64,000 nucleotides of DNA from an uncultured Eubacteriales bacterium (GTDB lineage Bacteria > Bacillota > Clostridia > Oscillospirales > Ruminococcaceae). Every line of letters begins with the position of its first letter. Position 1 is the stretch's first letter. Positions 19,701 through 21,062 of the stretch are shown here, piece by piece. The notes below the pieces were generated by a model. The model made no database searches, was not told the origin of the DNA, and was given only the letters and a program-made list of their open reading frames with translations. Where the stretch lies: contig OMXI01000001.1 in NCBI GenBank assembly GCA_900314975.1, positions 62,001 to 126,000 of the forward strand. Reading direction: 5' to 3'. A program made the translations under genes and the position numbers.

Positions 19701-19944
19701 CTTTGTAAGAGAGATCACCAGCAAGATCCAGACGATGCGTAAGGATTCGGGCTTTGAGGTAATGGACCACATCAACATCTATCTCACGGGCAACGACAAG
19801 CTCACAGAGCTGGTCAAGAAAAACGCAGAGCAGATAAGCCGCGACGTACTTGCGCAGGATATCAGGTTTGGCGAGACGGCTGAGAACTCAAAGGAGTGGG
19901 ATATCAACGGCGAGAAGGTCACTATCGGCGTTATAAGGCTCTAA
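16795..19944 (+). CDS. ileS: Isoleucyl-tRNA synthetase
   Basis: A 1,049-residue class I synthetase charging tRNA-Ile. Visible motifs are HIGH (residues 55-58, in GKPHIGHV), WDTHGLPVE, the editing-domain segment WTTTPWTLPSN, KMSKS (601-605) and DLSNWYVRRGRERYW of the anticodon-binding domain. Length and the sequence around HIGH resemble the long, eukaryote-like IleRS type 2 that several Clostridia carry in place of type 1. Type 2 enzymes are often less sensitive to mupirocin, which is an inference here. ATG 16795 follows AAAGGAAAG. The gene is monocistronic, controlled by the T-box leader and ended by the terminator at 19955-19988. Confidence 0.98.
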   Translation: MYKKVSTDLNFVQREKQIEKFWDENNIFEKSIDSRRKGESYVFYDGPPTANGKPHIGHVLTRAIKDMIPRYHTMKGKMVPRKAGWDTHGLPVELEVEKTLGIDGKDQIEEYGLEPFIKMCKESVWKYKGMWEEFSSAVGFWADMENPYVTYHNDFIESEWWALKQIYDKGLLYKGFKIVPYCPRCGTPLSSHEVAQGYKTVKERSAIVRFKIKDKDEYFLAWTTTPWTLPSNVALCVNPSDTYCKVKAADGYTYIMAQALLDTVLGSLAKDGEAAYEVLETYVGKDLERMEYEPLFECAGISAEKQGKKGHFVTCDDYVSMTDGTGIVHIAPAFGEDDARIGRAYDLPFVQFVNAKGEMTEETPYAGLFVKKADPEVLKDLDAQGKLFAAPKFEHEYPHCWRCNSPLIYYARDSWFIKMTDVKDRLIANNNTINWIPENIGSGRFGDWLKNVQDWGISRNRYWGTPLNIWECECGHRHSVGSIEELKSMSDNCPDDIELHRPYIDAVTIKCPKCGKQMKRVPEVIDCWFDSGSMPFAQHHYPFENKELFESQFPADFISEAVDQTRGWFYSLLAISTLIFDKAPYKNVIVLGLVQDENGQKMSKSKGNAVDPMEALQTYGADAIRWYFYTNSAPWLPNKFHGKVVTEGQRKFMGTLWNTYAFYILYADIDKFDPTKYEIEYDKLSVMDKWILSKMNSMIKAADDNLANYRIPEAAKAMQEFVDDLSNWYVRRGRERYWAQGMSQDKINAYMTLYTALVNLCKVAAPMVPFITEEIYQNLVRNVDKDAPESIHLCLYPEADEKMIDKQLESDMDEVLDIVVLGRSARNGSNLKNRQPLSVMYVCADHVLDSFYTDIIRDELNVKEVVFTQDASSYIDYKFKPQLKTLGPKFGKNLGEIRNNLAELDGHKAMAELDSTGFLKMNISTGEITLSKEDVLIESQQKDGFFTLTEGRVTVALSTTLTDELIEEGFVREITSKIQTMRKDSGFEVMDHINIYLTGNDKLTELVKKNAEQISRDVLAQDIRFGETAENSKEWDINGEKVTIGVIRL

Positions 19945-19954
19945 AAACAACATC

Positions 19955-19988
19955 AGCGGTGAAGGCTATATGCTTTCACCGCTTTTTC
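19955..19988 (+). terminator. Intrinsic terminator after ileS
   Basis: AGCGGTGAA (19955-19963) pairs with TTCACCGCT (19975-19983), followed by TTTTT. Confidence 0.92.
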
Positions 19989-20035
19989 ATTGCTATAAAA
20001 CTTCCCTGCCGACAGCTGAAGCGCTGCGACAGCCG

Positions 20036-20064
20036 AAAAAAAACTCCCACGAGATTTGTGGGAG
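20036..20064 (-). terminator. Minus-strand terminator of the candidate small RNA
   Basis: CTCCCAC (20044-20050) pairs with GTGGGAG (20058-20064), and eight T follow on the minus strand (20036-20043). On the plus strand no T run follows, so it works only leftward, where no coding gene ends. Confidence 0.85.
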
Positions 20065-20229
20065 CCAAAAAATAAAAAATTATAGGGGAGAAGTTGTAGA
20101 TAAATCTACAACCAAATATATGAAGGCCTGGGGTAAAAGCCAACATACCAAAGTTGTTATAGGAAAACCCTTTCGTTTTCCTTGTTAATATAATAGCCTA
20201 TTCATATGAACAGGATATTAAAACTTTTT
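20036..20229 (-). ncRNA. Candidate structured small RNA of about 194 nt
   Basis: No reading frame explains this stretch, but it is bounded like a gene on the minus strand: a promoter at 20236-20264 and an intrinsic terminator at 20036-20064. Between them lie the palindrome TTCATATGAA (20201-20210), the hairpin AGGAAAAC...GTTTTCCT (20161-20182), a stem combining TATG/CATA with GGC/GCC (20120-20146 region), and an 8-bp hairpin GTTGTAGA-TTTA-TCTACAAC (20093-20112). U-rich sequence near the 3' end could pair with the A-rich 5' end to close the molecule. Length and architecture recall widespread clostridial RNAs such as raiA or 6S, but I cannot assign it by eye. Confidence 0.6.
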
Positions 20230-20235
20230 ACGTAT

Positions 20236-20264
20236 ATTATGAATTTTGTTGAATTTACTGTTAA
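20236..20264 (-). promoter_or_regulatory. Promoter candidate for the minus-strand small RNA
   Basis: Minus-strand TTAACA (20259-20264), 17 bp, CATAAT (20236-20241), each box five of six to consensus. It overlaps the plus-strand -35 region of rsmE, so the two promoters face away from each other and may compete. Confidence 0.55.
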
Positions 20265-20277
20265 ACTATGTTATACT
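20249..20277 (+). promoter_or_regulatory. Promoter of rsmE
   Basis: TTGAAT (20249-20254), 17 bp, TATACT (20272-20277), about 60 nt before the start codon. Confidence 0.75.
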
Positions 20278-20336: not shown

Positions 20337-21062
20337 ATGCCACGATTTTTTGCGCAAAAGCGCGCTTTTTCGGGAACATCTGTTACGCTTGAAAAGCCTG
20401 ATTCGATACATATCGGCAGGAGTCTTCGCATGCGTATCGGCGATGAAATAACCGTATGCTGTGAGAGTGAGGAGTACAGCTGCCGTATAAAGTCAATATC
20501 GGACGAAAATGTCGTATGTGATATAATTTCCTCGGAAATAAGCCGCAGCGAGCCTGATATAAAGGTCACGCTGTTTCAGGCTGTGCCAAAGGGTGACAAG
20601 CTGGATACTATTGTACAAAAGGCTGTTGAACTGGGCGTGACAAACATCTGCCCTGTTCTGACGAGCCGCTGCGTTGCAAGACCAACGCAAAAGGATTTTG
20701 AAAAGAAGCGCGAACGCTTGCAGAGGATAGCTCTTGAGGCTGCAAAGCAGTGCGGGCGCGGTATCATACCGCAGGTCAGCGGTCTGCTCACGCTCGAACA
20801 GGCATCTGAACAGCTGGCTGAAAACGACTTCCCTCTTATCTGCTACGAATGCGGCGGCGTTAGCTTTGGCAGTGTCGGGCTGAAAAATGATTCCAGCATT
20901 GGAATTTTTATCGGCAGCGAAGGCGGATTTGAAAAGAGCGAGGTAGAGCTTTGCACATCAAAGGGTGCAACGGCTATCGGGCTCGGACCGCGGATACTGC
21001 GCTGTGAGACTGCACCGCTCGCTGCACTGAGCATTGTAATGAACCTGACGGGGAATATGTAG
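20337..21062 (+). CDS. rsmE: 16S rRNA (uracil-1498-N3)-methyltransferase RsmE
   Basis: A 241-residue SPOUT-class methyltransferase that methylates U1498 of 16S rRNA with S-adenosylmethionine. A PUA-like N-terminal domain (PRFFAQKRAF) leads to the knotted catalytic domain with KGDKLDTIVQKAVELGV, the SAM-loop segment IFIGSEGGFEKSEVE and the terminal LGPRILRCETAPLAAL. Length is normal. ATG 20337 follows a perfect AGGAGG at seven nt; an upstream in-frame start would overlap that site. It is probably monocistronic, and no clear terminator follows. Confidence 0.95.
   Translation: MPRFFAQKRAFSGTSVTLEKPDSIHIGRSLRMRIGDEITVCCESEEYSCRIKSISDENVVCDIISSEISRSEPDIKVTLFQAVPKGDKLDTIVQKAVELGVTNICPVLTSRCVARPTQKDFEKKRERLQRIALEAAKQCGRGIIPQVSGLLTLEQASEQLAENDFPLICYECGGVSFGSVGLKNDSSIGIFIGSEGGFEKSEVELCTSKGATAIGLGPRILRCETAPLAALSIVMNLTGNM

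Follow-up and report, generated by a model that had tools for sequence, protein, structure and literature searches.

CiaR is a regulator of the OmpR family. The csRNAs of the CiaR system in Streptococcus have promoters with the direct repeat TTTAAG-N5-TTTAAG (or NTTAAG-N5-TTTAAG) ten nt before the -10 element, and an unpaired stretch between hairpins which is complementary to Shine-Dalgarno sequences; an anti-start-codon CAU is present in the unpaired seed of 53 of the 61 csRNAs, according to PMC3091779. In a second described type, RsaE/RoxS, unpaired C-rich regions can base-pair with Shine-Dalgarno sequences, and its control by the two-component systems ResDE/SrrAB was seen as a conserved promoter motif (PMC4409812).

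A locus with several similar properties was found in the window analyzed here, a stretch of 64,000 nt from an uncultured member of the family Ruminococcaceae. It lies between two plus-strand genes, ileS (ending at 19944) and rsmE; these names were taken from a first-pass annotation, and the Pfam tRNA synthetase and RNA methyltransferase domains of the two products agree with them. The same annotation had proposed an unannotated, structured RNA gene of about 194 nt on the minus strand. Conservation, covariation, an intrinsic terminator and strand-specific G-U pairs all agree with such a gene, and we consider it strongly supported that the minus strand from 20183 to 20036 contains a previously unannotated gene for a structured small RNA. 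Its length is about 148 nt rather than 194 nt, because the conserved -10 element (20195–20190) sits 46 nt further downstream than the one proposed before; the start at 20183 was placed 7 nt past this element. The features are as follows (positions are those of the window unless a contig is given).

20036–20183, minus strand: small RNA gene of about 148 nt (conservation, covariance-model matches, covariation and fold; predicted 5' end)
20190–20195, minus strand: -10 element TATTAT (aligned genus promoters)
20205–20264, minus strand: six 6-bp units, probable response-regulator operator (coordinates, genus alignment and the box at the regulator gene)
20161–20182, minus strand: P1, the 5' hairpin, whose sequence varies between species (fold)
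20118–20148, minus strand: P2, a conserved hairpin, GUAUG..GGCUU-UUACCCC-AGGCC..CAUAU, with a C-rich loop (alignment, fold and covariation)
20092–20113, minus strand: P3, a hairpin of variable sequence and conserved shape (covariation)
20067–20093, minus strand: linker CUUCUCCCCUAUAAUUUUUUAUUUUUU, proposed anti-ribosome-binding-site seed and U-rich Hfq site (alignment, unpaired probability and complementarity)
20036–20066, minus strand: intrinsic terminator, hairpin 20066–20042 and U tract 20043–20036 (terminator scan, fold and covariation)
20337–21062, plus strand: rsmE, the divergent neighbor, ATG at 20337 (Pfam RNA methyltransferase domain, 170.5 bits)
G000:C16:4974-5648, minus strand: response regulator gene in the genome of the window, with a histidine kinase gene after it, at about 4990–3470 (locus L150, G000:C16:3470-5648)

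Like the csRNAs with CiaR, this RNA has a candidate regulator of the OmpR family. It is also a small intergenic RNA ended by a terminator, its promoter has 6-bp direct repeats with N5 spacing at about 9–10 nt from a TATTAT-like -10 element, and an unpaired anti-Shine-Dalgarno stretch is located between its hairpins, all as described in PMC3091779 for the csRNAs. On the other hand, its repeats are TTCACA-N5-AACACA-like instead of TTTAAG-N5-TTTAAG and the linker of the window has no CAU (compared with the same paper); it is single-copy in its own genome, belongs to another lineage with a different putative regulator, and has no Rfam match. With RsaE/RoxS and the C-rich Rsa RNAs of Staphylococcus aureus, the locus shares C-rich unpaired anti-Shine-Dalgarno regions, and with RsaE/RoxS a two-component control which is suggested here by a conserved promoter motif (features as given in PMC4409812). 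It differs from RsaE/RoxS in lacking an Rfam match in the window and in 20 related loci, in its promoter box and, presumably, its regulator, and in having been detected in just one family of the sampled order. Our best reading is that this RNA may work like the csRNAs and RsaE/RoxS and belongs to neither.

The first-pass annotation had left open whether the RNA was a known clostridial class (6S or raiA) or a new one. No Rfam 15 family was found at gathering score in the window, in L001 or in the 20 related loci, and raiA was rejected on these scans. The RNA resembles 6S RNA in being structured, of similar size and present in the same genome, but the window has no match to RF00013, and the genome contains a separate 6S RNA (L002, G000:C49:50828-51038, minus strand, 62.5 bits). 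The best low-threshold Rfam match, to STnc380 (E-value 0.006, 19946–20040), was rejected, as it covers the ileS terminator read from the minus strand; like it, the other 11 low-threshold matches were below gathering score, and they were treated as chance.

To describe the distribution of this RNA, we used both nucleotide searches and a covariance model. The former detected it in 27 of the 29 genomes of the genus, the two without a match being 76% and 70% complete. The model, built from the 27 genus members, matched 41 of 396 family genomes, belonging to 12 of 126 genera (counted by E-value). The matches L146, L148 and L149 have scores of about 40 bits or less and no promoter box, so we set them aside as doubtful, leaving nine trusted genera. 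In a draw across the order, two of 394 genomes matched, namely the genome of the window and G105, whose match is weak and doubtful. The conservation across relatives which the first-pass annotation had named as a check was thus found (27 of 29 and 41 of 396 genomes), and within the reach of the filters used the RNA seems to be limited to part of one family. Its DNA is single-copy in its own genome, and only two genomes of the genus gave nucleotide matches at more than one place: G020, where the second, weak match is the methyltransferase start region discussed below, and G021, which has two similar copies (L005 and L029, on contigs C3 and C11), each at a contig end. The latter probably reflect an assembly or strain-mixture effect.

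Folding of the longer stretch suggested by the first-pass annotation (197 nt) gave -58.3 kcal/mol compared with a mean of -34.0 for shuffled sequences (z = -6.2; 0 of 200 shuffles as low). The predicted 148-nt transcript folds at -44.5 kcal/mol into four hairpins: P1, P2, P3 and the terminator. In an alignment of 60 members (58 distinct), 96.6% of the 1412 cells of 26 modeled pairs are standard-paired, versus 34–54% for slid versions of the pairing, and compensatory changes on both sides were observed in 23 of the 26 pairs, the covariation in homologues which had been suggested as a further check; the alignment was fitted to the covariance model, which favors the structure somewhat. None of 500 shuffles reached any of the five measures used. 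Removal of the four weakest rows left 54 rows, of which 96.9% of cells are paired and 21 pairs are changed on both sides. In addition, 102 cells are G-U pairs on the minus strand, which would be A-C mismatches if read on the plus strand; together with the terminator, they fix the strand of the RNA as minus.

The individual hairpins differ in what is conserved. P1 is absent in two of the 27 genus members folded (L018 and L020). P2 has changes on both sides in seven of ten pairs among the 60 members, and its loop usually contains ACCCC, the C-run being lost in some members (e.g., L142). The sequence of P3 is quite different between genera while its pairing is kept, with compensatory changes in all nine modeled pairs. 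The terminator, which the first-pass annotation had recognized on the minus strand, has nine stem pairs (20066–20042) followed by eight T (20043–20036) and compensatory changes in all seven modeled pairs. As had also been pointed out, no credible protein gene of that strand ends there: the only open reading frame of at least 40 amino acids across the terminator is an unconserved 56-aa frame (19976–20146). A separate, strong plus-strand terminator of ileS is located at 19955–19983 (12 pairs). Two further elements of the earlier model were not retained: the alignment has no conserved GGGG partner for the suggested CCCC/GGGG pseudoknot, and an A-rich/U-rich closing pair would need DNA upstream of the predicted start.

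Between P3 and the terminator lies a near-constant linker, unpaired except for its first bases. All 27 genus members have an identical core, UCUCCCCUAU, which 55 of the 60 members contain (L147–L149 are among those without it); a longer stretch, UUCUCCCCUAUAAUUU, is matched exactly by 22 of the 27 and by 43 of the 60. Unpaired probability around the core has a median of 0.90 and exceeds 0.7 in 55 of 60 members. The A/U-rich stretch AUAAUUUUUUAUUUUUU precedes the terminator hairpin and U8, a feature of Hfq-type sRNAs. An Hfq gene was detected in 27 of the 29 genus genomes; the two genomes without a match are 83% and 70% complete.

We then compared the promoters of the 27 genus members, which have TATTAT-, TATCAT- or TATATT-like boxes at the aligned -10 position. 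Upstream of this element the window contains six units (TTAACA, TTCAAC, TTCATA, CGTAAA, TTAATA and TTCATA) in steps of 10–11 bp, the last of which ends 9 bp upstream of the -10 element, and exact TTHAYA matches in the genus promoters peak at -47 and -25. The first-pass annotation had assigned the RNA promoter to TTAACA-17-CATAAT. Both hexamers exist (20264–20259 and 20241–20236, with a 17-nt spacer), but they sit in the conserved repeat array and the conserved -10 element is the TATTAT at 20195–20190, so their promoter role was rejected. Promoter-like matches are common locally (12 found vs. 6.0 expected in 4 kb). The array of the window itself is degenerate, with a score of 13.7 for the weight matrix described below, and an exact triple-repeat pattern has no match in the genome of the window.

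A search of the 29 genus genomes with the pattern TTTTCACAN5WACACA revealed 16 matches, 13 of which are at the RNA gene, whereas the reversed control had none. One of the other three (L068) immediately precedes the gene of an OmpR-family response regulator, after which comes a histidine kinase gene. Orthologs of this regulator (at least 86% identity) were found in all 29 genomes. Its best NCBIfam model is PhoB, below cut-off (217.5 of 296.2 bits), and that of the kinase is WalK, far below cut-off; among the 25 models listed for each protein no curated cut-off was reached, and ResD is not among the 25 listed for the regulator.

A 19-bp weight matrix built from RNA promoters alone was run on the regions upstream of the regulator orthologs (up to 300 nt). 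Scores of at least 10.9 were obtained in 16 of the 29 genomes and of at least 19.0 in seven, including 21.7 in the genome of the window; the genomes are related, and such promoter counts are not independent. In comparison, 572,920 positions in 122 other stretches yielded 16 matches at 10.9 or more (two of which are true promoters of the RNA itself, in the window and L155), two at 14.3 or more and none at 19 or more, and the 99.9th percentile of 1740 shuffled scores was 14.3. TCAC-N7-ACACA could be seen by eye in 23 of the 29 regulator upstream regions, with a TATAAT-like -10 element at similar distance, but seven of these 23 promoters score only 5.8–8.3, inside the shuffled range. The reverse strand scores higher for the regulator promoter L090, and L099 offers only 164 nt of upstream sequence. 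In five genomes (L094–L098) no box was found within 1.5 kb of the regulator gene; the RNA promoters of these genomes hold some of the best boxes. Outside the genus, 19 of 33 RNA loci reach 10.9 or more, in six of 11 other genera, and 14 stay below it. Comparative evidence establishes a box common to the RNA promoters and the regulator gene, and we infer that the regulator binds it.

Possible targets were analyzed by complementarity to the linker. The mRNA of a methyltransferase stands out as the best candidate; the gene is on G000:C46, with an ortholog on G020:C11, and the proteins are 88% identical in the two genomes and belong to Pfam Methyltransf_25 (65.5 bits). The linker pairs in silico with the start region in G000 (L236, G000:C46:22751-22770, minus strand) at -27.7 kcal/mol, in an uninterrupted run of 16 pairs that continues past a mismatch, and with that in G020 (L030, G020:C11:30678-30703) at -30.5 kcal/mol, with about 25 pairs and one bulged base, the 27-nt linker being identical in the RNAs of both genomes. 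None of 1000 shuffles of either start region was as low. With a 34-nt stretch of the RNA, the values were -36.1 (G000) and -36.8 kcal/mol (G020); of 3862 other windows of 90 nt, a single one was as low, the RNA's own antisense (L155), the next being -27.3. In the predicted duplex the linker would mask the ribosome-binding site, which lies a few bases ahead of the ATG; this complementarity was seen in two close species only.

More general searches were less selective. AGGGGAGA-N1-12-ATG occurs at 105 places in six genomes, L236 being one of them, from which 60 candidate open reading frames of at least 40 amino acids were obtained (one at the RNA gene and one counted twice). Apart from the methyltransferase, one orthologous pair recurs among them (G000 and G006), which we take to be a HAD-type hydrolase. 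The 12-mer TTATAGGGGAGA was found at 30 places in the 29 genomes, six of them outside the RNA gene, and such outside matches are no commoner than for the reversed control (six vs. nine).

Taken as a whole, the C-rich strand, the U-rich stretch, the terminator and U tail, the presence of Hfq, the two-component-type promoter and the start region with strong complementarity suggest an sRNA which acts in trans by blocking ribosome-binding sites. We estimate a probability of about 0.68 that the RNA is a trans-acting sRNA under two-component control, probably assisted by Hfq, whose linker pairs with ribosome-binding sites and lowers translation. The OmpR-family regulator (G000:C16:4974-5648) would bind the array at 20264–20205 and activate the TATTAT promoter, and may regulate itself through one such box at C16:5826-5808; a box in front of the gene of the regulator itself usually indicates autoregulation. 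In the folded RNA two C-rich stretches would remain single-stranded, the loop of P2 (UUACCCC) and, most importantly, the linker, and the U-rich part and terminator tail are probably where Hfq sits. Pairing of the linker with purine-rich ribosome-binding sites would then result in less translation.

The choice of regulator is the part of this model for which the strongest competitor exists. It is unlikely, though worth considering, that the RNA works as proposed while a PhoP/PhoB-type or a second OmpR-family regulator drives both promoters. The 11-bp direct repeats of the array resemble PhoP boxes, a second related regulator (43–58% identity) is present in 26 of the 29 genomes at the E-value used, and five genomes have no box at the regulator gene; against this, the box is located at the C16 regulator's own gene, and the array was absent from 13 pstS-like loci examined as a control for the Pho regulon. 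The latter comparison covers pstS as the only Pho gene, with some of the 13 loci overlapping one gene and a PstS match in only eight of 29 genomes, one of them above the curated cut-off. A function by protein binding, in which the RNA serves as a sponge or as a ligand of polymerase or of a regulator and the constant linker is a protein site, appears improbable. Many pairing seeds are shorter than the constant segment of this RNA, and target candidates are confined to two close species, which would suit a protein site; however, in these two species almost all of the linker can pair with the methyltransferase start region, the RNA has no repeated motif as in sponges, and it is present in a single copy in its own genome.

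The position next to rsmE raises the question of whether transcription or regulator binding here mainly controls this divergent gene by promoter interference. Of 60 RNA loci, 47 have RsmE in a flank, in every case divergent, as do 26 of 29 genus loci (IleS only eight), and a promoter-like site of rsmE (20249–20277, plus strand) overlaps the repeat array. But RsmE was not seen next to the remaining 13 of 60 loci, for some of which the flanking sequence is short, the RNA of G011 (L024) keeps array, seed and structure with no RsmE in its 1.5-kb flanks, and interference needs neither covarying hairpins nor a constant linker, so that we regard a mainly cis-acting role as quite improbable. Hardly any weight can be given to the idea that the transcript is an mRNA whose small peptide begins at the P2 AUG (MLAFTPSLHI...), even though the frame is open for 56 amino acids in the window and many genus members share the first ten residues: across genomes the frame from this AUG runs from one to 369 residues, UCUCCCC falls in all three frames, and eight of 60 rows, four of them the weakest matches, have no AUG at this place. 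A coding role of the transcript was rejected on these observations. As for the earlier suggestion that the promoters of the RNA and rsmE overlap and couple the two genes, the overlap with the promoter-like site of rsmE is that of the repeat array; regulatory coupling is possible.

Returning to the trans-acting sRNA, a broader and more tentative proposal, to which we give somewhat less than even odds, is that an autoregulated two-component system uses it, as its direct output, to silence a regulon including the methyltransferase through a near-constant anti-ribosome-binding-site strand of up to about 25 nt, that this circuit evolved independently as a counterpart of CiaR-csRNA and ResD-RoxS, and that the position of the array lets the regulator tune rsmE. 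If true, another lineage would make a C-rich anti-ribosome-binding-site RNA by a two-component system, suggesting that this circuit design arises repeatedly. The model names a concrete regulator, operator, seed, chaperone and first target, each of which can be tested.

The RNA family is apparently undescribed. No description of it was recognized among the matches listed for literature on Ruminococcus/Ruminococcaceae sRNAs and gut metatranscriptome small RNAs, and the main texts of three genome-wide discovery papers (PMC11109978, PMC8632094 and PMC8040213) do not contain "Ruminococc", a bare prediction in the supplementary motif lists of the last being possible. The locus adds a well-supported RNA family to a group of gut and rumen bacteria whose sRNA circuits were the subject of none of the papers among the matches listed.

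Several additional sites were observed in the course of these searches. The remaining two matches to the promoter pattern are both in G009: L067 (G009:C12:71683-71701) adjoins a hydrolase gene, which we take to be SleB-like, and L078 (G009:C26:157105-157123) is directly upstream of what is presumably an HD-domain gene; these genes may possibly be further members of the regulon. Finally, a 14-nt complement of the seed is located just before the start of a gene in G021 (L261, G021:C7:29153-29164, minus strand), presumably a lipoprotein gene, on the same contig as the response regulator gene and about 2.7 kb away from it.
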